From Thermoleptolyngbya sichuanensis A183 (GTDB lineage: Bacteria > Cyanobacteriota > Cyanobacteriia > Elainellales > Elainellaceae): 64,000 bases of DNA. Made by a program: the position numbers and the translations under genes. Shown here piece after piece: positions 2,700-64,000 of this stretch (the stretch's first letter is position 1; each line of letters starts with the position of its first letter). The notes beneath the pieces were generated by a model. The model saw nothing but the letters and a program-made list of their open reading frames with translations, ran no database searches and was not told where the DNA came from. The DNA is taken from positions 4,340,001 through 4,404,000 of the forward strand of contig NZ_CP053661.1 of assembly GCF_013177315.1 (NCBI RefSeq), written 5' to 3'.

Positions 2700-5600
2700 C
2701 TAAAACCGCGTCTCAAATTCCAGAATCGCCCCGGTTCCGCCATCGGTGTCGATGTAGCTGCGGATTAGGAACTGGTCGTTGATGCGATAGCGCAGGTTGA
2801 ACTGCACAGGCGCATCGGCCGTCAGGATCGCCAGCACAGAGCCGGAGAGGTCAGTGCCAAACAGGTCAATCCCCGCTTCGGCGGCGAGTTCGAGGGTGGT
2901 GCTGGAGGCGTTTTCGGAGGGCAGCAGCGTGGGGAACAGCCGGAAATCCGACAGTCCCAGCACTTCGCTGATGACACCCTGGATGCCAGGGAGCAGGGCG
3001 GAACCTGCTAGGTTGGCGATCGCCAGCGTACTGTCGCCCTGCCCAAAGGTATTGATAAAGCCGCCGCCAATCAGCGCAATAATTTCGCTGTCGCTGCGGG
3101 CGGGGCTGCTGGTTAGCGCAAACGTGTCTGACCCGGTGAGGAATCCATCCAGCATTTCGCTGGCATAGCCGTCTACTGTGGCGATGACCCGCACATTACT
3201 GAGGCTGCCCAAGTCTGTCACCAGGGTTTCGTTAATCTCGGCGGCTCCGCTAGAGGTCGTGATCGGTGTGCGGGTCACCTCTGGTACTGAGGCCACAAGC
3301 TGCACTTGCAGGTAAGGATCGAGTCCCCGCTGCGGCGTAAATTCGGCGGTGTTGTTGTAGCCCCGCACCAAGTTGAATTGCGTGGTGAATAGGTTGACGA
3401 TGCCCCGACGAACTTGCAGTTCTCCCTCTGGACGGGGGGCCCGGACGGTGCCGTTGACCCGCAGTTCGCCCGCCACCAGAAAGTCCAGCAGCGGGTCGAG
3501 TGTAATTCGCAACCCGCGCCCCAGGCTCAATCGCAGGTTATCAAACCGGGGCGGAATGGTGATGTCATTAGGGTCAATGGGATCGTCTTCGGGCGGTGGC
3601 GCGTCGCCGCTGAGCAACTGGACGCGACCGTTGGTGAGCGCAATGTCGCCCCCAATTACCGGCGCAAGGGCGGTTCCGGTAACTTGCACTGCGCCATCGA
3701 CCCCACCGCTATACAGGCCCTTCAGATTCAGCACGACCTGATTAAGGCTGACTGTCAGTGGCTGGTTGACGGTTGTTTCGCTTTGTGGAAAATCATTGGG
3801 GTCAAAAATCGGCAAGATGCCCTCTGCAACCACTTCTCCCTGGCGGAACTGGCCGCGAATGCCTTCCACATCCACAAAGCTGGTGTTGAACTGGGCGCGG
3901 CCGGTGATGTTGGTCAGGGGTTCTGGCAGGGCGGGTGCGGTCATCGAGGCTCCGTTAAACTCGGCCGCGCCCGTCACCAGCGGCGCACTCAGCGTGCCCG
4001 TAATGTCCAAGTTGATATCCGCCTCGCCGCCGGCCCAGGCCACCTGGTTGGTAAACAGGCTGAGCAGTTCCAAGCCTTCGTTTTTGACGGAGAGGTTGAT
4101 GGCGATCGCCTCGCTGTCGGGCGATACGTCCATGAAATCGAAGGCGTAGGGAATATCGGCCCGCAGGCGCAGGGGTTCTGTTTCGTTGACGCTCATTTGC
4201 CCGATGATCCGCGCTCGCGCATCGTCGTAGCTGAAGAGCGCCCTGGCATCTCGAACGGACTGCTGCTGAATCTTGGCATCGAACAAGCTCACTTCGCCGC
4301 GCACCTCTGGATCGCCAAGGCTGCCCTGCAAAAAGGCGTTACCATTCACCCGACCCGTGATGCTAATAGGCAACCGCACGATGTCCTGAAGGGGTGTGAT
4401 ATCCACCGACTGCGCCTGAAGCTGGCCCGAAATCTCGTCTGCGCCAAACTGCCCGTTAAAACTGAGGAAGGCTTCGTCCGACCCCAGCCGCAGCGGTAAC
4501 AGTTCCAGAACCCCATCCTGGAGCGTACCCTGGGCGATCACCTGCTGCGCGTTAAACTCGCCCCATTGCCAGTTTTCTCCCGCCAGGTTGAAGTCTGCGG
4601 TCACGCCCGACCGCACTGAACCAGACAGGTTCAGTGTGGCTTCAAAGTTGCCTTGCAGTTCTGCCAGCCGAGGCAGAGGATTGGCGGCTTCGTCCTGCTG
4701 TTTTTGTAGATCCAGCAGCGCCAGGATCTCGGAATAGCGCTGGAGTTGCTGGTAAATGGGGCGATCGCCCGTTTGTATGGGCACGGTGGCCAGGTCGGTG
4801 GACTGGGCCGTGGGCGGCTGCCGGAAGCCTCGCGCCACGTCGTCGAAGTCATACCAGCGCAGGGTATTCAGCACGTCCTGAATGCGGGCGTTGTCGGTTT
4901 CCAGGGTCGCCTCGAACTGCGGGTCGTCGCCCAGCGTTGCGCTGCCGTTCACTGCGACCGTGCTGTAGGGCTGATCCAGGGGCGGCCGCTCGGTGGGCAA
5001 TGCCAGTGCCAGCAGCCCGTCCTCTAGCTCGATCCGGTCGTTGCGGTAGGTGATGCGCCCGCTGAACTGGTCGGCAAATAGGTAGCCAATGGCAGGGCGG
5101 ACGATGGTGAGATTGCCTTCGGTGGCGTAGGTGTCGAGGTTTACGTCAGCGCTGGCGGTGATCGTGCCCGTGACCGGGCCCAGCCCCAAGTCGGCTGCCG
5201 GGGTGAGGGCAAACCAGTCTAGGGGCAGGTTTTCTAATGTGGTGACCAGCGTGCGATTGCGCCTCGTTCCTGCTGCCCGCGCCCCGTCATGCACCAGCAG
5301 AAACGAGCGCGGCAGATAGTTGCCATCCAGATCGAGCGAAATCTGGTCGCGGCGGCCCGTCAGGTCAGCCCGCACGCCCTGACCCATTGCAAACTGCACC
5401 GGCCCGGCCAGGCGCGGATCAAACTGGCGCTGGTTAATGGCCAGCCCGTTGAGCGCCAGCAGTCCGTTCACATTCGGCGCAGCAGGCGTGCCCGACACCC
5501 GACCGGAAAAGTCCGTCCGCCCAGCCACACGCACCTGGGGCGGCAAGGTGACAGGCAGTCGATTCAGGTCAAAGTCCTGCACCTCCAGCGCCAGGTCAAA

Positions 5601-7577
5601 GCTAGAGATTTCCGGCGTGTTGCCTGTGGTCTGTGCAAAGACTGTGCCATTGGCGCGGAAGCCCGGAGCCGCCGCCCGATTCAGCACAAGGCGATCGCCC
5701 AGCCAGCGAAAATCTGCCGTCAGTGGCCCCGTTAGCAGCGACACGCCCTGCGACAGCCGCACATCGCCCTCTGCCCGAATGCCCGCCAGCGTCGGATCGG
5801 CCAGCGTGCCTGCCAGCCGCACCGTGCCATCCAGCGTGCCCGCCAGCTCCGGCGAAAACGGCCGCAGCCCCACCCCCTGGCTCCGCACCACGGCCTGCCA
5901 GCGATCGCCCACCAGGTCGCCCTCCGCACTCACGCGCCCGCCCGCGACCTCCAGCGTCGTGTTTTGCAGCCGCAGATTCTCGCCCGCAATCAGCAGTTCC
6001 CCCCGTGCTGGGTAGGTCGCCTCCGCCGCCTGCCATTGAATCGCCGTGCGGAGTGCATTAGACGGCCCCTCTACCTGCGCGGTTGCATTAACCCGTCCTA
6101 GCACGATTTCTGGCGGCAGCGTTGCGCCGTAGGTTCGCGCCAGGGCATCGGCGGGCAGATTTCGCGCCTGGACTCGCGCCTGCACGGTCGCCTCCTCGCC
6201 CAGCCCCAGCACGCCGCCCCCCGTCACCACGCCACCGCCCGGAAGCTGCGCCACCAGATCCGTCAAATCAACCCGCTCCTTCACCAGCGAAAAGCGGGCA
6301 CTGAGGCGAGCAATGGCAACTTTGTCAATTAGCAGGGGGCGACTGCTGCGAACCATGCCCGCCACAATCGGCCCATCGGGCGGCCCCGTCACCGTCACAT
6401 CGGCATCAAAGGCCCCAGCAAGGGTGATCGGGGTCGCTACGTCTGCCGTTTCTTCGATCTGGCGAAAATCCACGTTGCGGACGCGAGTGGACAGGTTGTA
6501 GCCCTCACGCAGGTCATAGGTTCCTTCTACTTCAACGGGAATCGTGCCGTAGGTAACGCGCCCGTCTTCGATAGTGATCAGCCGATTGCGAAACCGCAGT
6601 TGGGCCCCGGCCTGGGTAATGCGCTTGGGCACATCGGCGATCGCCACTGCCACATCGGCAAACCGGGCCGTCCCGTTCAGCCCCGTCACCGTGTCGTCGG
6701 CAAACCGGAGTTCCAGGTTAGAAGACAGCCGTCCGTCCTCTAGCGCCACGGGCATCGCCAGCAGCGCCCCCACATCCTGCACGGCAATGCCATCGGACTG
6801 CACCACCAAATTCAGCCGAAAATCGGGCACAGTGATCCCTTCGCCCCGCAGCCGCAGCGCCCCACCCCGGCCAGGATTTCCAGTGACATCAAAGCGAATA
6901 TTTTGCCCTTCCAGCCTCACCCCGCTGGCATCGGTAGCCTCGATGGAGTCCAGGTTTACCTCGCCGTTGACCTGTTGCAGCCGCACCGATAAGTCCGAAT
7001 CAGGCTGCACCCCCGGCTTTTCCGCCTCGATCATCAGTTGCGCCGAGGGAGCCACGGTCACCGTACCGTCTGCGATCAATAGCTGCCGCAGCTCAACCTT
7101 CAGCGGGGGGTCGTCCTCGCTTTCGGCCAGTTCAATGGCGATCCACTTGCCGTCGTCGGTCTGGTCGAGAAAAATGTCGGGGTTTTGCAGGGTCAGCACC
7201 AGCCCCAGACGACGCTGGAGCAGATCCAGGAGGTTAAACCGGGCGCGGACTTGCTGCACCGTAGCGCGATCGCCATCGGTCTCCGTTGGCGGCAAGACTG
7301 ATTCGCCAAACACAATCTCGCCCTGGCCGCGCCAGTTGAGCGCAAGGCCTTGCAGCGGGCCCACCTGAACGGGGCGGTTGATCGTCTCACTCAGCGTAGT
7401 AGACAGCAGCGGAGCTAGGTCGTTTCGCAAAAAACTTCGCACCCACAGCGTTCCGCCCACGCTGCCTGCCAGAGCGACCAGCCCCAACCCCAGGGCAACG
7501 GGTCGCCAGGCCAGGCGGAGACGACGACGGGGCGGACGAGGCGGCTGCGGCGCGGCGGGTGGCTCAGGTGAATTCAC
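2700..7577 (-). CDS. TamB/DUF490-type translocation and assembly module protein
   Basis: 1625 residues: a short proline/arginine-rich cytoplasmic tail, one membrane anchor at about residues 28-50 (LALGLGLVALAGSVGGTLWV), then a very long beta-rich periplasmic region with repeated GxVxGxG-type strands. The C-terminal ~400 residues have the DUF490/TamB signature and end with the motif ...GAILEFETRF. TamB-like proteins form a hydrophobic groove bridging inner and outer membranes; they take part in outer-membrane protein assembly and lipid transport. The start is GTG at 7577, with no in-frame ATG just upstream and no clear Shine-Dalgarno. Two genes away on the other strand is an LptD-like barrel, so this is a small outer-membrane biogenesis neighbourhood. 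Confidence 0.88.
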   Translation of the reverse strand: MNSPEPPAAPQPPRPPRRRLRLAWRPVALGLGLVALAGSVGGTLWVRSFLRNDLAPLLSTTLSETINRPVQVGPLQGLALNWRGQGEIVFGESVLPPTETDGDRATVQQVRARFNLLDLLQRRLGLVLTLQNPDIFLDQTDDGKWIAIELAESEDDPPLKVELRQLLIADGTVTVAPSAQLMIEAEKPGVQPDSDLSVRLQQVNGEVNLDSIEATDASGVRLEGQNIRFDVTGNPGRGGALRLRGEGITVPDFRLNLVVQSDGIAVQDVGALLAMPVALEDGRLSSNLELRFADDTVTGLNGTARFADVAVAIADVPKRITQAGAQLRFRNRLITIEDGRVTYGTIPVEVEGTYDLREGYNLSTRVRNVDFRQIEETADVATPITLAGAFDADVTVTGPPDGPIVAGMVRSSRPLLIDKVAIARLSARFSLVKERVDLTDLVAQLPGGGVVTGGGVLGLGEEATVQARVQARNLPADALARTYGATLPPEIVLGRVNATAQVEGPSNALRTAIQWQAAEATYPARGELLIAGENLRLQNTTLEVAGGRVSAEGDLVGDRWQAVVRSQGVGLRPFSPELAGTLDGTVRLAGTLADPTLAGIRAEGDVRLSQGVSLLTGPLTADFRWLGDRLVLNRAAAPGFRANGTVFAQTTGNTPEISSFDLALEVQDFDLNRLPVTLPPQVRVAGRTDFSGRVSGTPAAPNVNGLLALNGLAINQRQFDPRLAGPVQFAMGQGVRADLTGRRDQISLDLDGNYLPRSFLLVHDGARAAGTRRNRTLVTTLENLPLDWFALTPAADLGLGPVTGTITASADVNLDTYATEGNLTIVRPAIGYLFADQFSGRITYRNDRIELEDGLLALALPTERPPLDQPYSTVAVNGSATLGDDPQFEATLETDNARIQDVLNTLRWYDFDDVARGFRQPPTAQSTDLATVPIQTGDRPIYQQLQRYSEILALLDLQKQQDEAANPLPRLAELQGNFEATLNLSGSVRSGVTADFNLAGENWQWGEFNAQQVIAQGTLQDGVLELLPLRLGSDEAFLSFNGQFGADEISGQLQAQSVDITPLQDIVRLPISITGRVNGNAFLQGSLGDPEVRGEVSLFDAKIQQQSVRDARALFSYDDARARIIGQMSVNETEPLRLRADIPYAFDFMDVSPDSEAIAINLSVKNEGLELLSLFTNQVAWAGGEADINLDITGTLSAPLVTGAAEFNGASMTAPALPEPLTNITGRAQFNTSFVDVEGIRGQFRQGEVVAEGILPIFDPNDFPQSETTVNQPLTVSLNQVVLNLKGLYSGGVDGAVQVTGTALAPVIGGDIALTNGRVQLLSGDAPPPEDDPIDPNDITIPPRFDNLRLSLGRGLRITLDPLLDFLVAGELRVNGTVRAPRPEGELQVRRGIVNLFTTQFNLVRGYNNTAEFTPQRGLDPYLQVQLVASVPEVTRTPITTSSGAAEINETLVTDLGSLSNVRVIATVDGYASEMLDGFLTGSDTFALTSSPARSDSEIIALIGGGFINTFGQGDSTLAIANLAGSALLPGIQGVISEVLGLSDFRLFPTLLPSENASSTTLELAAEAGIDLFGTDLSGSVLAILTADAPVQFNLRYRINDQFLIRSYIDTDGGTGAILEFETRF

Positions 7578-7753: not shown

Positions 7754-7789
7754 GGGCGATTCGCGAAGCGATCCCTGCGGGAATCGCCC
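7754..7789. repeat. Palindromic repeat, copy A (intergenic)
   Basis: A near-perfect palindrome, GGGCGATTCGCGAAGCGA followed by TCCCTGCGGGAATCGCCC, in the 333-bp gap between the tamB-like gene and psbI. Four further copies lie inside coding sequences of this window (8626, 8766, 9225 and 62142). Nothing else in the gap looks like a gene; the psbI promoter must be here. Confidence 0.85.
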
Positions 7790-7910: not shown

Positions 7911-8027
7911 ATGCTGACGCTTAAAGTGATTGTTTATATCGTCGTGCTGTTCTTCATCAGCCTGTTCGTGTTTGGCTTCCTGTCCAACGACCCCTCGCGC
8001 AACCCCAACCGCCGAGATCTCGAATAG
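7911..8027 (+). CDS. psbI: Photosystem II reaction centre protein I
   Basis: A 38-residue protein with one transmembrane helix near the N-terminus ([19 protein letters not shown]) and the conserved stromal tail [14 protein letters not shown]. Length and tail match PsbI, a low-molecular-mass subunit bound to D1 at the edge of the photosystem II core and important for early assembly. It starts MLTLK where most homologues start METLK. No strong ribosome-binding site is visible. It sits alone between the tamB-like gene (opposite strand) and the LptD-like gene (same strand, 157 bp downstream). It is too short for most gene callers. Confidence 0.95.
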
Positions 8028-8184: not shown

Positions 8185-11100
8185 ATGCCCGTCCCGGTTC
8201 CGCCCCCTAGCTTCCCGCCTCCCCCTGCTGCGATTGTCGATATTGCACCTGCTGCCCCGGTTCAGGAGCGCGATCGCCCATCCGCTGATGCACCTGCGAT
8301 CGCATCTGATTCGCGTCCCCTGCCAGAGCTAGGTTCAGGGGTTCGGTGGTCACCCCGGTCAAAGTCTACAAGCGCCGGAACAGCCCCATCGACCGCTGAA
8401 GTTACGCCCAAAGAGTTTACGCCCGAAGGATCTGCGCTTGGAGGATCTGCGCCTGGAGGATCTACGCCTGGAGGATCTACGCCCGGATCAACAGTCGAGC
8501 CGATGAGCGCATCATCGCCTGGGTCGGTTGCGGATGTGGCTTCACGATTCCGCACCCCAGGAGCCAGCGCCTCGCCGACTCGTCCCGCCCGACAATGGCT
8601 GCAAACTCGTCAGGACGGGATAGCTGGTAATTCCCACAGGGATCGCTTTGTGAATCGCCCCGCTGCTCCTGTCGCTGCTGTCGAGCCAGCCGATCCTGTC
8701 TCTGGGGCGCAGTCCGTTCCCACATCGAATCAGGGAAGCGATCTGGGCCGCCGTTCGGTTTCGTCGGGCGATTCCCGCAGAGATCGCTTCACGACTCGTC
8801 CCGCTCGTCTAAGTGGCCGTCTGCCTGCCACGCCGCCGCCTCTGCCTGCCGTTGCTAATGCCCAGTCCGCCGCGTCCCTGGGTGTGCCGCTGTCGGTTAA
8901 CGTCGCCCCAACAGTCGCTCCAGGGGCAGACGGCACAGTGACGCTTCCTGTTGTGGAATCTGGTTCTGGTTTAGCATCCGTCCCAGAATACCTTCCCGCG
9001 CTGACACCGGGGACTCTGCTAGCCGCACCGCCTTCCGACACGACGATATTCCGCTCTGCACCGCCGCACCTGGCTGATGACTGGCGACTGTTGGGAGAAC
9101 CCTGGCAGCCGATTGAATCGCCCGTTGCATCCCTACAGCCTGCGATTACGCGGTCCTCGCTGTCGTTTTGCCCCTCAACCCTGAGCGCCGAGGCGATTGG
9201 GGGAAGGGAAATGGGGCTGATGGAGGGCGATTCGCGGAGCGATCCCTGCGGGAATCGCCCCCTGTCTGTCCCTGCCGAGCGCCAGCTTCCCAGCCAGACC
9301 TGGGCTGTTTCCAGCAATCCCATTCCTTTGCTTGCAGCGCTTTCTAGCCGCAGCGACGCAAGTATCGTTGCCCAGGCTCCTCCCCCGTCGAACCAACCCC
9401 TCAATCCAGACAGCGCCCCAAACCTGCCCGCGCCCATCCCGTTTCCAGAAACCCTGGAGCAAGACCCCGATTCGGGTCGGCAAATTCTGCTGATTCCGCC
9501 CCCAGACGACGGGCCCGACCCGGCGACCCCGCCGCCAGACGGAGAGGCTCCGGTCGATGCGCCGGTTGCTTCCCCGTCGCCGCCTGCTTCTCCCAGCCCT
9601 TCTCCTAGTCCTGCTGCGACGGATTCAGCAACGCCCACCAGCCTGACTGATCTGGTGGAAATTCGGGGCGATCGCCAAGATTTTGACACCCTGCGCGAGG
9701 TCTTCTCCGCCGAAGGCAATGTAGAAATGCGTTTCCGGCGGGCAGTGCTGACGGCAGATCGGGTGCAGGTGAATTTGCAAAATCGCATTGCGGTGGCCGA
9801 GGGCAATGTGCAACTGGTGCGGGGGGCCCAGATTCTTCAGGGCGATCGCCTCGTCTACAACTTTGTGCAAAGCGAAGGCACGGTGGACGGAGCTAGGGGC
9901 GAAATCTTCTTGCCCTCCAGCGGTACGGATCTCACCCTGCTATCGCCGCTGGAAGAAGCCGCTGCGGGCGCTGAACGACCTCGCCCCACGCCTCGTCCTC
10001 CGGGTGCGCCCCCTGTTTCCAGTCCCGGCGGCATCCTGGTAGAAGTGGGGGCCAACCTGGATCAGGGGTTGGCGCTCACGGGGCAGCGCGAAGGCGAGCT
10101 CACCCGCTTTCGCTTCGAGGCCGAATCTATCGAGTTTTTTCCCGACGGCTGGGTCGCCCAAAATGTGCGCCTTACCAATGACCCCTTTTCGCCGCCCGAA
10201 CTGGAACTCCGCACCCCCGAACTCACCTATACCCAGTTCAACCCGCTCCAGGCGGAGGTTCGCGCCCGCAATCCCCGGCTCGTGTTCGACCAGCGCTTCA
10301 GCCTGCCCTTTTTGCAGAACCGGGTGGTGATCGACAATCGCCGCCGCCAGCCGCCCCTGCTTCGGTTGGGCTATGACGAAGAGGTGGGCGGGCTATTTGT
10401 GCAAGCGCCGCTGACGGTGATCAACCAACCCCGCGTGCAGTTTGTGCTTGCGCCCGCAATTCTGCTTCAGCGGGCCGTTACAGACAACAACTTTAATTTC
10501 TTTGATCCCAGCAGTATTGGGCTGTTGGCGCAGTTGGATGCCACCCTCGGCCCCTCCACGTCGCTGGTGGGCACGGCGACCTTTGGCACGCTCGATTTGG
10601 GCGACTTAGAAAACAAGGTGCGGGGCAGTCTGCGGCTGCGGCAGCAGGTGGGCATTCACCAACTGACGCTGGAATATAGCTACCGCGATCGCCTGTTTAA
10701 CGGCACCCTTGGGTTTCAGAACGTGCAGAGCAGCCTGGGTGCTGTTTTTTCTTCCCCCAACATTCCGCTGGGCAGTTCACGTATCAACCTCAACTATCAA
10801 TTCAGCGCCCAGCTAATCAACGCCAACACCGATCGCGAGGACTTGCTCGATCCCCCCCTGGAGCGCCGCAATAGCCGCGTCACGCTGGGTCGATTTCAGG
10901 CCAGTGCGGGGCTAACGCGGGCCTTTTTACTGTGGTCTGCGCCGCCCCTGCCGCCCACTGCTGAAGGAGGACTGCGCTATTCGCCCACGCCCATTGTTCC
11001 CAACCTCGTCGCGGTCGTCGGGTTGCGCGGCACTACTGCCTATTACACTAGCGAAGATAGCCAGAGCAGCCTGACGGCCTTTGCCAGCCTCCAGGGGCAG

Positions 11101-11454
11101 TTTGGCCGGTTCTCCCGGAATTTTCTGGACTACACCCGCTTCAACGTCACCTACTCTAATGCGATTGTGGAGGGGGAATCTCCGTTTCGATTTGACCGGA
11201 TTGCTGATCCTCAGGTTCTGTCCTTTGGGCTCCTGCAACAAATCTACGGGCCGATTCGAGCAGGCTTTCAAACGTCAATTAACCTTGACAAGCGGGAAGG
11301 TTTTGACACGACTTTTTTCCTGGAATATAGTCGCCGCACGTATTCCATCATTCTGCGGGTCAACCCCGACCGAGAGGTGGGATCGCTGGGTATTCGGATT
11401 AACGACTTTAACTGGACGAATCCGCCGGAACCGTTTTCGGGGCAGCCTCAGTAG
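8185..11454 (+). CDS. DUF3769 / OstA-like (LptD-type) outer-membrane protein
   Basis: 1089 residues in three parts. Residues 1-~490 are low-complexity, rich in Pro/Ser/Ala, with no clear signal peptide at the annotated start. Residues ~491-640 form an OstA/LptA-like beta-jellyroll (VEIRGDRQDFDTLREVFSAE..., LTADRVQVNLQNRIAVAEGN). The rest is a beta-barrel typical of the cyanobacterial DUF3769 family. By homology to LptD this protein would take part in lipopolysaccharide export to the outer membrane. The N-terminal region contains three copies of a palindromic DNA repeat, read as G(N/D)SxRDRFxxRP or GDSRSDPCGNRP depending on orientation. The real start could be further downstream if the low-complexity part is not translated, but the frame is open throughout. 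Confidence 0.85.
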   Translation: MPVPVPPPSFPPPPAAIVDIAPAAPVQERDRPSADAPAIASDSRPLPELGSGVRWSPRSKSTSAGTAPSTAEVTPKEFTPEGSALGGSAPGGSTPGGSTPGSTVEPMSASSPGSVADVASRFRTPGASASPTRPARQWLQTRQDGIAGNSHRDRFVNRPAAPVAAVEPADPVSGAQSVPTSNQGSDLGRRSVSSGDSRRDRFTTRPARLSGRLPATPPPLPAVANAQSAASLGVPLSVNVAPTVAPGADGTVTLPVVESGSGLASVPEYLPALTPGTLLAAPPSDTTIFRSAPPHLADDWRLLGEPWQPIESPVASLQPAITRSSLSFCPSTLSAEAIGGREMGLMEGDSRSDPCGNRPLSVPAERQLPSQTWAVSSNPIPLLAALSSRSDASIVAQAPPPSNQPLNPDSAPNLPAPIPFPETLEQDPDSGRQILLIPPPDDGPDPATPPPDGEAPVDAPVASPSPPASPSPSPSPAATDSATPTSLTDLVEIRGDRQDFDTLREVFSAEGNVEMRFRRAVLTADRVQVNLQNRIAVAEGNVQLVRGAQILQGDRLVYNFVQSEGTVDGARGEIFLPSSGTDLTLLSPLEEAAAGAERPRPTPRPPGAPPVSSPGGILVEVGANLDQGLALTGQREGELTRFRFEAESIEFFPDGWVAQNVRLTNDPFSPPELELRTPELTYTQFNPLQAEVRARNPRLVFDQRFSLPFLQNRVVIDNRRRQPPLLRLGYDEEVGGLFVQAPLTVINQPRVQFVLAPAILLQRAVTDNNFNFFDPSSIGLLAQLDATLGPSTSLVGTATFGTLDLGDLENKVRGSLRLRQQVGIHQLTLEYSYRDRLFNGTLGFQNVQSSLGAVFSSPNIPLGSSRINLNYQFSAQLINANTDREDLLDPPLERRNSRVTLGRFQASAGLTRAFLLWSAPPLPPTAEGGLRYSPTPIVPNLVAVVGLRGTTAYYTSEDSQSSLTAFASLQGQFGRFSRNFLDYTRFNVTYSNAIVEGESPFRFDRIADPQVLSFGLLQQIYGPIRAGFQTSINLDKREGFDTTFFLEYSRRTYSIILRVNPDREVGSLGIRINDFNWTNPPEPFSGQPQ
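8626..8660 (-). repeat. Palindromic repeat, copy B (inside the LptD-like gene)
   Basis: Reverse-oriented copy (GGGCGATTCACAAAGCGATC on the minus strand) translated in the host gene as GNSHRDRFVNRP, residues about 148-159. Confidence 0.8.
8766..8797 (-). repeat. Palindromic repeat, copy C (inside the LptD-like gene)
   Basis: Slightly decayed copy in the same orientation as copy B. It is translated as GDSRRDRFTTRP (about residues 195-206), so it encodes nearly the same peptide as copy B. Confidence 0.7.
9225..9260 (+). repeat. Palindromic repeat, copy D (inside the LptD-like gene)
   Basis: Almost identical to intergenic copy A (one base differs in the core) and in the same orientation. It is translated as EGDSRSDPCGNRP, about residues 347-359. 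It introduces a cysteine into the otherwise Ser/Pro-rich linker. Confidence 0.85.
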
Positions 11455-11458
11455 AAGG

Positions 11459-11498
11459 GGGAAGAGGGAAGAGGGAAGAGGGAAGAACGAAGAGCGAG
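11459..11498. repeat. Heptanucleotide STRR array, within the 11455-11882 intergenic region
   Basis: Head-to-tail AGGGAAG heptamers ending in AACGAAG and AGCGAG variants, starting right after the LptD-like stop codon. This is the short tandemly repeated repetitive type known from filamentous cyanobacteria. The remaining ~380 bp before pyruvate kinase has no convincing gene. It holds an imperfect hairpin (GGAACAGT/ACTATTCC near 11717-11740) and presumably the pyk promoter. Confidence 0.8.
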
Positions 11499-21593: not shown

Positions 21594-21770
21594 AGAGGAT
21601 GTTTGAAAAGTTCCACAGTTTGTCCCACTGTTTTTAGAAAAGCGTGCAAGATCCCCCTAAATCCCCCTTGAAAAGGGGGACTTTAAGGCGGGTTCCCCCC
21701 TTTTTAGGGGGGGCTAGGGGGGATCTCTGAGTGCTTAATATTACAGGCGATACCTTTTCAAACACCCTCT
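21594..21770. mobile_element. MITE-like element, left of the NarL-type regulator gene
   Basis: A 177-bp non-coding element bounded by 17-bp terminal inverted repeats with one mismatch (AGAGGATGTTTGAAAAG and CTTTTCAAACACCCTCT). The interior (21650-21726) is a pair of C/G-rich hairpins with GATCCCCCTAAATCCCCCTT and its complement. Related modules appear at 22621-22706 (reversed) and 46177-46416. Confidence 0.7.
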
Positions 21771-22600: not shown

Positions 22601-22752
22601 GGCGTGTTTTAAAGCCCTTTGATCCCCCCTAGCCCCCCTTAACAAGGGGGGAACCGAGCCGAGCCACTCCAGAAGTCCCCCTTTTTAAGGGGGATTTAAG
22701 GGGGTTCGACTCAGGGCAATCAACGACCTAGAAAGTTTTAAAACAATGCCTA
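22598..22752. mobile_element. MITE-like element, right of the NarL-type regulator gene
   Basis: Ends TAGGGCGTGTTTTAAAG and GTTTTAAAACAATGCCTA form imperfect terminal inverted repeats. The interior (from 22621) carries the same C/G-rich hairpin modules as the 21594 element, in the opposite order. Its first three bases are the stop codon of the preceding gene. Confidence 0.6.
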
Positions 22753-28513: not shown

Positions 28514-29776
28514 ATGGAATCACTAGCATATATTCATGCTGCGGTTGCCTACGAAGACCCGAATCCGGCTCCTGAACTTCAGGTAAGCCTGGAAATTCCT
28601 AGCTCGGTCTGGCTGGGAACCCTCTCTACCGCAGTCGTCGTATCTGCCGTTGGTGGCGTTGCGCCAGAAGCCCAAGCTGTGGTTCGCTTTGGCGATACCT
28701 GCATCCAGGTAGGCGATGTGCAAAGCGCCCTTGCTTCGGCGGGCTTCAGCCCCGGCTCTGTTGACAGCGTTTTTGGCTCCAACACGCTATCCGCTGTCAG
28801 ACGGTTTCAGTTGTCGAAGGGGCTTTCTGTGGATGGCGTGGTCGGCCCAGCAACCGCCAGCAGCCTCGGTCTGAGTGGTTCGATTTACGACGTGGGCGTT
28901 AGCTGCGGCACTGGCGGCCCTGGCGATGACGGCGGCCCAGATTTCGTCAGAGTTTCGACCAATGGCAGCCCCCTGACCGTTCGCAACGGCCCGGGATCTG
29001 GGTTTGCGCCCATCGACTATCTGTCTAACGGCACGGTGGTTCGCGTGGTGGGTTCCTCAGGCGGCTGGTACAACATCTCAGGTGGTGGCTGGATTTCACA
29101 AGCTTGGACAGTCGAGAGCAGTGGCGGCACTGGCGGTGGCGGTGGCGGTGGCGGCACCGGCAACTATTTCGTCTCCACCAACGGCAGCACGCTGCTGGTT
29201 CGCAATGGCCCCGGCACTGGGTTTGCCGTTATTGATGAACTGTTTAATGGAACCTCGGTCACCATTGTCGAAGTTTCGGGCGGCTGGGGTCGTCTGTCTA
29301 GCGGCGGCTGGGTGTCGATGGACTGGCTGAGCGCTGGCGGCAGTGGCGGCGGCGGTGGCGGCGGTGGCGGCGGCACCGGCAACTATTTCGTCTCTACCAA
29401 CGGCGGCACGCTGCTGGTTCGCAATGGCCCCGGCACTGGGTTTGCCATTATTGATGAACTCTTCAACGGCACCTCGGTCACCATCGTCGAAGTTTCGGGC
29501 GGCTGGGGTCGTCTGTCTGACGGCGGCTGGGTGTCGATGGACTGGCTGAGCGCTGGCGGCAGTGGCGGCGGCGGTGGCGGCGGTGGCGGCATCGGCGGCT
29601 ACTATGTCTCCACCAACGGCGGCACGCTGATCGTCCGGAGCGGCCCTGGCCCTGGCTTCATTGATATTGACGAGCTTCCCAACGGCACCCCGATTGACAT
29701 TGTGGAGATCTCTGGTGGTTGGGGTCGCTTAGCTGGTGGTGGCTGGGTGTCGATGGATTGGGTTGCTTTTGACTAA
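28514..29776 (+). CDS. Peptidoglycan-binding protein with four SH3b modules and poly-Gly linkers
   Basis: 420 residues. The start MESLAYIHAAVAYEDP is shared by a family of cyanobacterial envelope proteins. A hydrophobic stretch (LGTLSTAVVVSAVGGVAPEAQA) at ~34-57 looks like an internal signal or anchor. A PG_binding_1 domain (VGDVQSALASAGFSPGSVDSVFG..., ~68-115) is followed by four bacterial SH3 domains, each with the pattern VSTNGxxLxVRxGPGxGF...GGW, separated by poly-glycine linkers of 8-10 residues. SH3 modules 2 and 3 are almost identical in DNA. ATG 28514 is chosen because GAGGAG lies five bases upstream. It probably binds peptidoglycan in the periplasm. Confidence 0.85.
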   Translation: MESLAYIHAAVAYEDPNPAPELQVSLEIPSSVWLGTLSTAVVVSAVGGVAPEAQAVVRFGDTCIQVGDVQSALASAGFSPGSVDSVFGSNTLSAVRRFQLSKGLSVDGVVGPATASSLGLSGSIYDVGVSCGTGGPGDDGGPDFVRVSTNGSPLTVRNGPGSGFAPIDYLSNGTVVRVVGSSGGWYNISGGGWISQAWTVESSGGTGGGGGGGGTGNYFVSTNGSTLLVRNGPGTGFAVIDELFNGTSVTIVEVSGGWGRLSSGGWVSMDWLSAGGSGGGGGGGGGGTGNYFVSTNGGTLLVRNGPGTGFAIIDELFNGTSVTIVEVSGGWGRLSDGGWVSMDWLSAGGSGGGGGGGGGIGGYYVSTNGGTLIVRSGPGPGFIDIDELPNGTPIDIVEISGGWGRLAGGGWVSMDWVAFD

Positions 29777-29807
29777 GCCTGCTCTAGAGACTCCGTTTTT
29801 TTAGAGT

Positions 29808-31775: not shown

Positions 31776-32328
31776 GCTAATCGTTTCCTAGTGTTCGTCT
31801 CCGTAGTTTTTGTTGGGCCGACATTCTCCTTAAGCTAATGCACAACATGCCCGACCGCTGCCCGCATCAGCCAGCACTGTCCTGACAGATGTACACCCAA
31901 AGGGGCGTAACCAGATACTCCAAGATTCTGCGTTTTAGACGTTGATGTTTCAGCCGCCTTCTATTGTAAGCGCAGCACCGAAGTTGTTGCTAACCCTAGG
32001 AGATCTATCATACCCCACGGTCGCCCTTCAGGTAGCCAGACTTTTGCGGAATTCTTGTATAACTTTGCAATTTTCTCGCGTGTGGGGGGCTGTCTGGCTG
32101 AAGCTCGTGCAAACAGGGTTTCATTGAGCGGCTGGCTGCTCCAAATTTGCAGCAGACTCACGGGTGAACGGGGCTTGCCTGGGCGAACGTTCAGTGGTTT
32201 GTCTCAGGCGTATATCAAGTAAGTTCAGCGTGAAACTTTTTCTGGGCTTGCCTGGGCGAACGTTCAGTGGTTTGTCTCAGGGGCTTGTCTTATGGGTTTG
32301 TCTCAGTGGTTTGTCTCAGGGGCTTGCC
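31776..32328. other. Region between rps1 and nrdR with a 38-bp direct repeat
   Basis: No gene seen. 32171-32208 and 32244-32281 are identical 38-bp direct repeats (GGGCTTGCCTGGGCGAACGT and onward), 73 bp apart, followed by shorter GTTTGTCTCAG repeats running up to the nrdR stop codon. The rps1 promoter and leader occupy the left part. Confidence 0.7.
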
Positions 32329-32871
32329 TCATAAGACACCCAGCTCGTCTTCCTGCTCAGAGGGGTCTAGAACTGAGGGGGCGATCGCCCCTCTCCGCTC
32401 AGACTTGCTGCCGTTTCCCAACGCGCCCTGAAGCTGGTTGAGCGTGTCTACAAAATCTCGAATGCCGCGAAACTGTCGATAGACCGATGCAAAGCGGATG
32501 TAGGCGACTTCGTTCAGGTCTTGCAGCCGATCCAGCACCAGCTCGCCAATTTCCTGGCTGGGCACTTCGCGCACCGATCGTTGCTGAAGTTCGGCCTCGA
32601 TTTCGTCTACCAGATTTTCTAGTTCTAAATGGGGAATACCCGTTTTTTCGCAGGCCCGCATGATGCCGCGCAGCACCTTTGAGCGGTCGAAGGATTCCCG
32701 TGCGCCGTTCCGCTTGACCACAATCACGGGCACAAACTCAATGCGCTCGTAGGTGGTGAACCGTCGTCCGCAGCTCAGGCACTCCCGTCGCCTTCGGACG
32801 CTTTGCCCCGACTCGGCCGAGCGAGATTCCAAAACGCGGTTGTCGGTAAATTGACAGAAGGGACACCTCAT
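32329..32871 (-). CDS. nrdR: Transcriptional repressor NrdR
   Basis: 180 residues. An N-terminal zinc ribbon has C3, C6, C31 and C34 (MRCPFC...CLSCGRRF). The ATP-cone domain at ~48-138 ([22 protein letters not shown]...[11 protein letters not shown]) binds ATP/dATP. NrdR represses ribonucleotide reductase genes when dATP is high. The C-terminus beyond ~155 ([15 protein letters not shown]...) is extended and variable. In many cyanobacteria psbB and psbT precede nrdR; here neither is upstream in the window. Confidence 0.96.
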
Positions 32872-45605: not shown

Positions 45606-46154
45606 ATGACACAACCATCCACACCATCGCCCGCCGCCTCGCCTGTGGTGGGCATTATTATGGGCAGCGACTCTGACCTGCCCACCATGCAGGGGGCGAT
45701 CGCCATTTGCGAACAGTTCCAGGTTGCCTGCGAAGTAGCGATCGTCTCCGCCCACCGCACCCCAGAGCGCATGGTGGACTATGCCCAGACCGCCCACGAG
45801 CGCGGGCTAAAGGTCATCATCGCGGGTGCAGGCGGTGCGGCACATTTGCCGGGAATGGTGGCCGCCCTCACGCCATTGCCTGTGATTGGCGTTCCCGTGC
45901 CCAGCCGCCATCTGCAAGGACTGGACTCGCTCTATTCCATTGTGCAAATGCCCGCCGGAATCCCGGTGGCCACGGTGGCGATCGGCAACGCTCAAAACGC
46001 CGGCCTCCTCGCCGTGCAGATCCTCGCCTGCCAACAGCCCGACCTGCTGGCCCAGGTACAGCGCTATCGCCAAAGCCTGCGCGATAGGGTGCTAGAAAAG
46101 CAGTCGAAGCTCGATGCGGTAGGATATCAGGCGTATCTCCAGCAAATGTCGTAG
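45606..46154 (+). CDS. purE: N5-carboxyaminoimidazole ribonucleotide mutase
   Basis: 182 residues, class I PurE. It moves the carboxyl group of N5-CAIR to C4 in purine synthesis. Signatures are [26 protein letters not shown] (active-site His), [15 protein letters not shown] and [30 protein letters not shown] 45606 with [16 protein letters not shown] is the first in frame. Its partner PurK is not in the window. Confidence 0.96.
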
Positions 46155-46416
46155 TTTGATGCCGATATGAGATCCCCCTAAATCCCCCTTAATAAGGGGG
46201 ACTTCCGATGCGGTTCCTCGTTTGATGTCGATATGAGATCCCCCTAAATCCCCCTTAATAAGGGGGACTTCCGATGCGGTTCCTCGTTTGATGTCGATAT
46301 GAGATCCCCCTAAATCCCCCTTAATAAGGGGGACTTCCGAATCCGGTTCTTCCCTTTAGTAAGGGGGACACCCGAATCCGGTTCCCCCCTTACTAAGGGG
46401 GGCTAGGGGGGATCTC
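46155..46416. repeat. Tandem 66-bp repeats of a C/G-rich palindromic module
   Basis: Two exact 66-bp periods and a partial third start at 46155, 46221 and 46287; each has TTTGATGyCGATATGAGATC followed by a CCCCCTAAATCCCCCTT / AAGGGGGACTT hairpin. The array ends with a second hairpin (CCCCCCTTACTAAGGGGGG) and GGGGGGATCT. The modules are the same as in the MITE-like elements near 21.6 and 22.6 kb. It separates purE from the GIY-YIG gene. Confidence 0.8.
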
Positions 46417-48579: not shown

Positions 48580-48630
48580 GGGCGATTTTTGGGGCGATTT
48601 TTGGGGCGATTTTTAGGGCGATTTTTGGGC
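48580..48630. repeat. 12-bp tandem repeat upstream of rarD
   Basis: Four copies of GGGCGATTTTTG (third with A for G) in the 376-bp gap between rarD and the Hsp70 gene. In the minus-strand rarD frame they read PKNR repeats. The rest of the gap has no gene and holds divergent promoters. Confidence 0.85.
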
Positions 48631-61625: not shown

Positions 61626-61765
61626 AACAAAACCCTGGAGATGCTGAGAGCGCAATCTTTTCACGAAACTTATAGCTCAAAATCCCAGAATCCGGCCCGC
61701 TTTTCTCAAAATTCAGGATTTCTACTGATGACGCTCAAAGGACACTGTGCCCACCAATCTATTAC

Positions 61766-61853
61766 CTCTTCCCTCTTCGTTCTTCGTTCTTCGTTCTTCC
61801 CTCTTCCCTCTTCCCTCTTCCCTCTTCGTTCTTTTCCCCCTTCCCCCTTCCCC
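61766..61853. repeat. Heptanucleotide STRR array downstream of a kinase gene
   Basis: TTCCCTC and TTCGTTC heptamers in blocks, ending with TTCCCCC copies, directly after the kinase stop codon (61855). These are the complement of the AGGGAAG/AACGAAG heptamers at 11459-11498. Confidence 0.85.
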
Positions 61854-61854
61854 C

Positions 61855-64000
61855 TCAATCTCCCCCTCCTCCCTGCCGAATCGGAATTTCAATCCGAAAC
61901 ATCGCCCCCTGGCCCGGTTCGGAAATGCACTCCAGAATGCCCCCATGTCGTTCCGTGACGATCTGGTAGCTGATGGACATGCCAAGTCCCGTGCCTTTGC
62001 CGACGGGCTTGGTGGTAAAGAGGGGGTCGAACAGGCGCTTCTGAACCGATTCGGGGATGCCAGGGCCGTTGTCGATCAAGTAGATAGCAACGCGATCGGG
62101 CACGATGTATTCCGTGCGGATGGTGATGCGGGGGGAATCGGAGCCATTCCTGCCGGGATTGCTTTGCGAATTGCCCCAGTCTCCTTTTTCCAGCGCCTCG
62201 TCAAGCGCGTCGATGGCGTTGCTGAGGATGTTCATAAACACCTGATTCAGCGAGCTAGCGTAGCACTCCACCTTGGGCAGCGAGTCATATTCCCGCACCA
62301 CCTCGATGGCGGGCTGGCCCGGCTTTCCCTTAAGCCGATTCTGCAAAATCATCAGCGTGTTGTCGATGCCCTCATGCAAATCGACGGCTTTGAATTCCGC
62401 CTCATCCATGCGCGAGAAGTTGCGGAGCGACATGACGATTTTCTGAATGCGCTCTGCCCCAACCCGCATAGACTTTAGCAGCTTGGGCATATCTTCTAGC
62501 AAGAAGTCCAGGTCGGTGTTGCCCAGCAAGTCTTGAATGGCAGGCACAGGGTCAGGATAGTGCTGTTGATAGAGGCGTACCACTTGCAGCAGGTCTTCGG
62601 TGTATTCGTTTGCATAGTTGAGATTGCCGTAGATGAAGTTCACCGGGTTGTTGATTTCGTGAGCCACGCCTGCCACCAGTTGCCCCAGTGATGACATTTT
62701 TTCGCTTTGAATCAGTTGCGATTGGGTGCGCTGGAGTTCCCAAAGTGTGTTTTGCAATTCGTCAGTTTGTTGGCGCAGTTGGGCTTCCGACTGCTGGAGG
62801 GCTTCTTCGGCAAATTTGCGATCGCTGATGTCAAAGCGAATAGCCAGATACTTTTGCACGCGCCCATCCTGGTCGAGCGCGGGCACGATGGTGGTAGATA
62901 CCCAGTAAAAATGACCTGCTTTGGCGCGATTTTTCACCTCGCCGCGCCACACCTTGCCGCTGCGAATCGTCGCCCACATGTCCCGGAAAAACTCCGGTGG
63001 ATGATAGCCAGAGTTAACAATCCGGTGGGTTTTGCCAATTAGTTCTGCCTCGCTATAGCCTGAAAGCTCGCAAAACTTATCATTGACATAGGTGATTATG
63101 CCGTGGGGATCGGTCACTGCAAGAATGGCAGCCTGATCCATTGCGAACTGGCGGAACTGGAGTTCCTTCAGCGTTTTCAGCAGGGAATGCTCAGCCCGTT
63201 CGCGGATAGAGACAGCCTTTTGCAGTTCATCGACGGTTTCCTGGAGTTCGGCGGTGCGCTCCTCCACGCGAAACTCCAACTCTTCCTTGGCCTGGCGCAG
63301 GGCTTCTTCGGCGTGGCGGCGATCGCTCACCTCCATCGAGATGCCCGTCGTGCCGATAACCTGCCCTGCCTCGTCATACATCGGCGTTTTGGTTGTGCTA
63401 AACCAGCGTATGGTGCCGTCTGGCATGGGAAGCTGCTCTTCTAGCGAGAAGATCTGACCCGTGTTCATCACGGCCTGGTCTTCATCCTGGAACATTTGCG
63501 CCTTGTCGGTCGGCCAGAGATCAAAATCGGTTTTGCCAATCAGGGCTGCCGGAGCAGTCCCTACCGACTCGGCAAAAGATTGGTTTACCACCACATGTTG
63601 TCCCTGACAATCCTTTAGCCAGATGCGATGAGGAATGTTGTCCAGTACGGATTTGAACAGGTGTTTTTGGCGGCGCAGTTCTTCCTCGGCCTGCCTGCGA
63701 TCGGTGACATCGCGAAATGTGCCGACGGCTTTGAGCGGGATACCGTTTTCGTCGTGGATGGTAACGCCAATATCGCGATACCAGCGGCATTCGCCCGTGC
63801 GGGTAAACATGCGGTATTCCACGTCGTAGGGGGTTTGCCCTGTGGGGTCTTGGATGTGGGCTAGTAGGGCGGCGGTGACCCACTCGACATCGTCGGGATG
63901 GATGCGATCGCGCCAAGCATCTACTCGGTTAGGAAACTCATCCACTGTCTGAAAGCCCAACAGTTCGCGAAACTTGGGCGACCACCAGACGGGATTATCG
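61855..64000 (-). CDS. PAS histidine kinase (5' end outside the window)
   Basis: At least 715 residues are seen; the frame continues past 64000, as the bases 63961-64000 still read PAS sequence (NPVWWSPKFREL). Four PAS domains (the first cut by the window edge), among them WLKDCQGQHVVVNQSF and LAVTDPHGIITYVNDKFCELSG, precede HisKA with the H-box GVAHEINNPVNF. HATPase_c follows (ILSNAIDAL, DNGPGIPE, GTGLGMSISYQIV). The family is the large group of cyanobacterial cytoplasmic PAS kinases. Between the N-box and the strand ITIRTEYIV an insertion GNSQSNPGRNGSDS is encoded by a palindromic repeat (62142-62176). Confidence 0.9.
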   Translation of the reverse strand, partial: DNPVWWSPKFRELLGFQTVDEFPNRVDAWRDRIHPDDVEWVTAALLAHIQDPTGQTPYDVEYRMFTRTGECRWYRDIGVTIHDENGIPLKAVGTFRDVTDRRQAEEELRRQKHLFKSVLDNIPHRIWLKDCQGQHVVVNQSFAESVGTAPAALIGKTDFDLWPTDKAQMFQDEDQAVMNTGQIFSLEEQLPMPDGTIRWFSTTKTPMYDEAGQVIGTTGISMEVSDRRHAEEALRQAKEELEFRVEERTAELQETVDELQKAVSIRERAEHSLLKTLKELQFRQFAMDQAAILAVTDPHGIITYVNDKFCELSGYSEAELIGKTHRIVNSGYHPPEFFRDMWATIRSGKVWRGEVKNRAKAGHFYWVSTTIVPALDQDGRVQKYLAIRFDISDRKFAEEALQQSEAQLRQQTDELQNTLWELQRTQSQLIQSEKMSSLGQLVAGVAHEINNPVNFIYGNLNYANEYTEDLLQVVRLYQQHYPDPVPAIQDLLGNTDLDFLLEDMPKLLKSMRVGAERIQKIVMSLRNFSRMDEAEFKAVDLHEGIDNTLMILQNRLKGKPGQPAIEVVREYDSLPKVECYASSLNQVFMNILSNAIDALDEALEKGDWGNSQSNPGRNGSDSPRITIRTEYIVPDRVAIYLIDNGPGIPESVQKRLFDPLFTTKPVGKGTGLGMSISYQIVTERHGGILECISEPGQGAMFRIEIPIRQGGGGD
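62142..62176 (-). repeat. Palindromic repeat, copy E (inside a histidine kinase)
   Basis: On the minus strand GGGCAATTCGCAAAGCAATC then CCGGCAGGAATGGC, a diverged copy of the 36-bp palindrome. It is translated in the same frame as copy D, giving GNSQSNPGRNGS where copy D gives GDSRSDPCGNRP. Confidence 0.65.

Follow-up and report, generated by a model that had tools for sequence, protein, structure and literature searches.

A probable SDR5-type 24-nt repeat inserted within HIP1 octamers adds eight residues to proteins of Thermoleptolyngbya sichuanensis A183

Main finding

A palindromic repeat dispersed in the genome of the cyanobacterium Thermoleptolyngbya sichuanensis A183 is very probably a very small dispersed element of the SDR5 type, copied into the middle of HIP1 octamers and adding eight residues to the protein where it lies in a gene. 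Insertion at HIP1 was precise and repeated, and it took place in both orientations, inside and outside genes, and after two congeners had parted. Growth of many proteins by one inserted mobile DNA is chiefly known from Rickettsiales.

Repeat unit and insertion site

The host genome was searched as one contig of 5,525,100 bases. The mobile unit is a 24-nt sequence inserted mid-octamer in cyanobacterial HIP1, GCGA/TCGC (GCGATCGC). A genome-wide list of copies, as suggested with the original prediction, contained 99 matches to the 24-mer at up to three mismatches, with 0 for the backwards control and with no HIP1 flank required by the search. An exact HIP1 was split by the insert in 62 of these copies and a HIP1 with at most one mismatch in 91; in two (3556125 and 5094678) HIP1 was not recognisable. 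Across the 99 copies, base conservation drops outward of the GCGA/TCGC flanks. The 36-mer around the unit occurred 46 times genome-wide at up to three mismatches (backwards control 0).

The insertion point fits GCG + 24 nt + ATCGC, between the third and fourth nucleotides of HIP1. As AT is repeated at both ends, this point is ambiguous by up to 2 nt, and an insert of 24 nt without duplication and one of 22 nt with a 2-nt duplication are indistinguishable. The length is a multiple of three, so that eight amino acids are added and the reading frame stays intact. The absence of stop codons, which had been pointed out for both orientations, extends to all six frames of the 24-nt consensus, but is nothing special, since 21.6% of 20,000 shuffled 24-mers were equally open; six-frame openness was therefore rejected as a sign of selection.

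Adjacent copies less than 2.5 kb apart formed 20 pairs against 4.3 expected, 14 of them in the same orientation. Neighbouring copies were no more similar to each other than to the rest (mean distance 3.30 vs 3.33 for others), which leaves local copying or hopping of the repeat unsupported; regions permissive to insertion are the likelier reason for the clusters. Noted by the way at G000:C1:1307805-1308008 were three copies, two of them with the variant CCGTGCGG, in about 200 nt within one open frame of 240 codons.

Copies in the window

The window, i.e. the whole stretch of DNA that was analysed (64,000 nucleotides), gave eight matches to a 20-mer of the repeat at five places, a single palindrome being able to match on both strands; 100 shuffles gave 0. 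The copies and the gene that holds three of them are as follows:

7754-7789 (insert proper 7760-7783), plus strand: intergenic copy, core with 0 mismatches, HIP1 halves on both sides
8185-11454, plus strand: LptD-like gene, 1089-aa ORF, N-terminal part low-complexity
8627-8658 (insert 8631-8654), minus strand, antisense to the gene: lptD copy A, reads GNSHRDRFVNRP (from 8626)
8768-8799 (insert 8772-8795), minus strand, antisense to the gene: lptD copy B, reads GDSRRDRFTTRP (from 8767)
9227-9258 (insert 9231-9254), plus strand, sense: lptD copy C, reads GDSRSDPCGNRP (from 9226)
62143-62174, minus strand: fifth, decayed copy, core with 4 mismatches, in frame in an ORF, reads GNSQSNPGRNG

The three in-frame copies in the low-complexity N-terminal region, two in one orientation and the third in the other, and the intergenic copy at 7754 were thus all found as originally predicted. 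The intergenic copy sits between a tamB-like gene (2700-7577, minus strand) and psbI (7911-8027, plus strand). In lptD copy A one HIP1 half has decayed, with two mismatches. The LptD-like protein carries PF12600 (DUF3769) at 637-1076 (E 4e-173) and a weak LptD_N match at 523-559 (E 5e-4, just over the cut-off). The ORF holding the fifth copy is presumably a histidine kinase, judged by its motifs.

Secondary structure

The unit can fold as two adjacent hairpins, A (TCGC-GAA-GCGA) and B (TCCC-TGC-GGGA). Covariation was assessed on 122 distinct 32-mers with 2000 shuffles. Hairpin B showed ten double changes, a total reached in none of the 2000 shuffles, although these changes are not independent events, related copies sharing them; seven sequences had a double change at one of its pairs, the highest value among all column pairs. 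Hairpin A showed three double changes, without excess over the shuffles (438/2000 reach it), and the outer stem zero. The long palindrome was rejected as a conserved fold, five double changes at its inner pairs being reached in 966 of 2000 shuffles. DNA folding gave the long palindrome on one strand and the two-hairpin form on the other.

Short, hairpin-forming, dispersed and non-autonomous repeats are also what REP/REPIN sequences are, and the genome encodes one Y1_Tnp match (426653-426988). An origin as REP-type palindromes mobilised by a Y1 transposase of the RAYT/IS200-like kind is nevertheless very improbable: the consensus has neither of the tetranucleotide tags GTAG and CGTC, none of the 99 copies is near the Y1_Tnp match (the nearest are at 406791 and 455420), the target is an octamer, and the copies largely score as in-gene instead of being mainly extragenic.

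Copies within genes

Gene placement was done with a 3-periodic coding score trained on 135 long ORFs of the fetched stretches. The score placed 53 of the 99 copies inside genes, 31 at gene edges or in ambiguous positions and 15 between genes; lptD copies A and B were scored intergenic because of their low-complexity setting, and errors are possible in the opposite direction too. The claim that the repeat builds protein sequence was borne out by these in-gene copies, which are in frame and add residues.

Intact HIP1 sites were scored internal in 507 of 715 cases and random positions in 899 of 1447. In-gene positions are thus less common for the repeat than for its target (Fisher p 0.0007; p 0.11 when compared with random positions), a deficit that would be expected if selection removes some insertions, and that is a rough figure given that in-gene detection demanded an open frame across the copy.

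The residues gained depend on the frame of HIP1 and the orientation of the element. All six readings were found among the 53 in-gene copies (phases 0/1/2: sense 15/17/2, antisense 5/9/5), namely GDSRSDPCGNR, GDSRRDRFANR, AIREAIPAGIA, AIPAGIASRIA, GRFAKRSLRESP and GRFPQGSLRESP. Of 20 insert-bearing proteins scanned against Pfam, 17 had a family, as did three scanned in addition. The insert lay within the matched domain in 13 of the 20 proteins with a family and in a linker or beside domains in seven:

Within domains (13): UPF0227, Exo_endo_phos, HisKA, Fer2_3 (a protein we take to be SdhB-type), methyltransferase, Metallophos (presumably SbcD-like), Hydantoinase_A, Peptidase_U32, DUF3536, Glyco_transf_4, PfkB, Carb_kinase, GAF
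In linkers or beside domains (7): GNAT protein, two glycosyltransferases, PurK_C, ABC_transp_aux, PUA/methyltransferase, CHAT

An alternative would be that the peptide is a selected protein module (for binding, localisation or as a linker) and the DNA repeat its consequence. This would agree with the one common codon phase of lptD copies A, B and C, with their G(D/N)S-like starts and NRP/TRP ends, and with the sense orientation being commoner in genes (34/53, binomial p 0.053). We consider it very improbable, as all six frame and orientation readings occur genome-wide, the host proteins are unrelated, and some copies lie outside genes. Slower decay of in-gene copies was not found either; within the three-mismatch limit of the search, they were as diverged as the others. 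Most likely the inserted peptides have no function themselves and are simply tolerated.

Filled and empty sites in related genomes

The congener used for comparison was Cyanobacteria bacterium J069 (G001, RFIF01), a metagenome-assembled genome that is 85% complete; at three pairs of loci, G001 and the J069 record had all tested 100-mers in common (68 of 68, 62 of 62 and 62 of 62). Of 55 in-gene segments, 47 were searched in J069 and in two other genera of the family (G004 and G016), and all 55 were aligned with the loci obtained, among the matches listed. A J069 row spanned the copy in 32 of 55 cases among the loci obtained; the remaining 23 copies were absent from the fetched J069 loci, which is no proof of absence at 85% completeness.

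For 15 of the 32 compared copies, J069 lacked exactly eight residues at the element, in a clean gap. The J069 junction read exactly GCGATCGC in 14 of these and had one mismatch in the other one. Of 1600 24-nt windows drawn at random from these J069 stretches, 76 contained the octamer. In the best J069 rows, the 2731 columns away from the element windows contained eight gaps, none of them eight residues long. The insert was common to A183 and J069 in six cases (924854, 1157615, 1986842, 2356452, 2557020 and 3127843), and the other 11 showed neither a clean gap nor a clear shared insert, with paralogues, replaced stretches, other gap lengths or misalignment, the last as at lptD copy C.

The comparison of the LptD-like gene with a relative, which had been proposed as a check, gave a clear result at one of the three copies and a probable one at another. 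The J069 counterpart is divided, with its N-terminal part at a contig end and its C-terminal part on another contig. At lptD copy B it reads GGC GAT CGC CCT (GDRP), with a clean eight-residue gap and the 24 nt absent from within HIP1. As this site lacks exactly 24 nt, the outer six bases on each side of the 36-bp palindrome, which had been taken for the unit as a whole, are the target and its usual context, and the unit proper is the central 24 nt. lptD copy C probably also faces an empty HIP1 site in J069: the sequence is GGC GAT CGC CCA (GDRP) with HIP1 present, in a site read by eye because the stretch just upstream differs in length and the aligner had set a gap of 17 residues. A diverged stretch (IANR) lies opposite lptD copy A, where a clear empty site was not found in J069. 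At the place matching the decayed copy at 62143-62174, J069 carries a less decayed insert.

In the reverse direction, six in-gene copies of J069 were checked in A183, where two sites were empty with an intact HIP1 octamer, three had a shared or decayed counterpart and one was ambiguous. One insert present only in J069 lies in a gene that, by a motif, resembles dihydropteroate synthase. Two of the six being absent from A183, copies were gained in both lineages, in line with spread after the species split. The recent in-gene spread proposed originally is accordingly supported in part: the repeat has entered genes after A183 and J069 diverged, as indicated by the empty HIP1 at copy B and at 14 of the 15 clean gaps in other genes, and some copies, the six shared ones, are older.

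One congener alone does not give the direction of change, and the inserts might be ancestral and have been deleted precisely from HIP1 sites in relatives. The outgroups G004 and G016 make this highly improbable. They have an eight-residue gap with exact HIP1 at nine loci, so that the direction is insertion:

Eight-residue gap with exact HIP1 in the outgroup alignment (9 loci): 296833, 455420, 754059, 2270396, 2599590, 2921797, 3432117, 3815585, 3863330
Eight-residue gap without exact HIP1 in the outgroup alignment (7 loci): 406791, 467812, 1986842, 2268050, 2356452, 2557020, 3439763

Neither outgroup genome holds a 32-mer of the repeat at up to three mismatches, and within the family matches were restricted to two genomes of this genus among the 28 examined.

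Distribution among cyanobacteria

Among 242 genomes sampled from the class, the 32-mer was found at up to three mismatches in 11, a patchiness in keeping with a mobile element. When named genomes were scanned for an exact pattern, 18 stretches were obtained, six from J069 and 12 from Planktothricoides, Tildeniella, Nodosilinea, Leptolyngbya, Microseira, Planktothrix and further cyanobacteria. Each of the 12 copies from outside J069 lies within an open frame, a candidate gene, with a length of 135 to 1329 codons. Variants from other genera, e.g. CCGTCCCGG for CCCTGCGGG, keep hairpin B paired. The broad pattern GCGATT...AATCGC, sought in nine other genomes, was above the backwards control in eight, the exception being G147 (3 vs 6 in the control), all among the matches listed. 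Reading by eye in G068 and G129 showed further HIP1-nested inserts, of 24-27 nt and with two hairpins that differ in sequence from those of the present unit, which suggests a broader class of HIP1-nested elements.

Proposed mechanism and known systems

In the explanation preferred here, a 24-nt unit, or equally a 22-nt unit of two hairpins between repeated AT, would be copied into HIP1, converting GCG-AT-CGC to GCG-AT-[two hairpins]-AT-CGC. HIP1 is frequent inside genes, hence many copies would land there; and because the length equals eight codons and the consensus is free of stops, each such insertion would add eight residues and often be tolerated. A folded single-stranded copy, either RNA or DNA, may be joined in trans to a HIP1 site that an activity recognising HIP1 or GATC has opened. 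No mobilising enzyme for the 24-nt repeat was found. A specific cutting activity at HIP1 sites has been raised as a possibility in an earlier study (PMC4390886).

The closest known system is SDR5, compared here by description, with which target, position of insertion and size agree. Elhai et al. (2008, Genome Res. 18:1484) reportedly presented SDR5 as a small repeat dispersed in Nostoc punctiforme and its relatives, with a length for SDR sequences of 21-27 nt and compensatory changes that support a fold. The present unit has 24 nt, with exact eight-codon gaps at 15 of the 32 J069 comparisons, and shows covariation in hairpin B and none beyond shuffles in hairpin A or the outer stem. It differs in its host, Thermoleptolyngbya, and perhaps in that 53 of 99 copies score in-gene. 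The study that raised cutting at HIP1 also describes SDR5 as inserting within HIP1 between the third and fourth nucleotides (PMC4390886).

A likeness to the palindromic elements of Rickettsia (RPEs) had been drawn in the original prediction, and it holds for the consequence, as both are palindromic and readable in frame in unrelated genes, here in proteins of unrelated Pfam families. It does not extend to kinship. A 2024 review describes RPEs as ten families of elements with a length of about 150 bp, each with a conserved peptide, and places almost half of the first set within ORFs (PMC10969869). The present repeat has 24 nt, is read in any frame and orientation, targets HIP1 in a cyanobacterial host and has no single conserved peptide; weighed by description, it has a negligible chance of being a distant member of that group. 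The review treats a similar mechanism of protein growth in other prokaryotes as conceivable (PMC10969869).

In the titles and abstract openings of the open-licence literature, no report was found of such a repeat spreading in frame through proteins of cyanobacteria, and the 2008 SDR5 paper may mention it; the new aspect seems to be the extent of the spread through conserved proteins. We give about even chances to a wider reading, in which a live HIP1-nested 24-nt element has enlarged about 50 proteins by eight-residue inserts in any of six readings, many of the inserts lying in conserved enzyme domains (SdhB-type Fe-S protein, methyltransferase, histidine kinase, nuclease/phosphatase and, in the sister species, a dihydropteroate-synthase-like protein). 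It would then parallel the RPEs as a second case, of independent origin and far smaller, with HIP1 as a portable, frame-tolerant landing site. With at least 15 sites filled in one congener and empty in the other, and with one of the two being a hot-spring isolate, the comparison allows tests of the effect of an eight-residue insert on enzymes, of the mobility of the 24 nt and of specific cutting at HIP1.

Other repeats

Further repeats were recorded in the window and the host genome. Heptamer-like tandem repeats of the GAAGAGG/GAAGAAC type lie in opposite orientations at 11454-11497 and 61762-61845; they resemble the short tandem heptamers that occur in cyanobacteria. Repeats of 66 nt around CCCCTTAATAAGGGGG-type palindromes, three in tandem, are found at 46149-46386, with relatives about 24 kb off at 21628-21727 and 22621-22709. 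Short tandem arrays are present at 1026-1135 (11 nt), 32264-32332 (13 nt) and 48580-48627 (12 nt, unit GGGCGATTTTTG), and a GGC-rich 219-nt repeat occurs three times at 29132-29785, the second copy being 94% and the third 68% similar to the first. A 46-nt repeat, GCGATTGGCACC...GGTAAATCGC (e.g. G000:C1:63135-63180), was near-identical at dozens of places on both strands among the matches listed and is possibly part of an insertion sequence.
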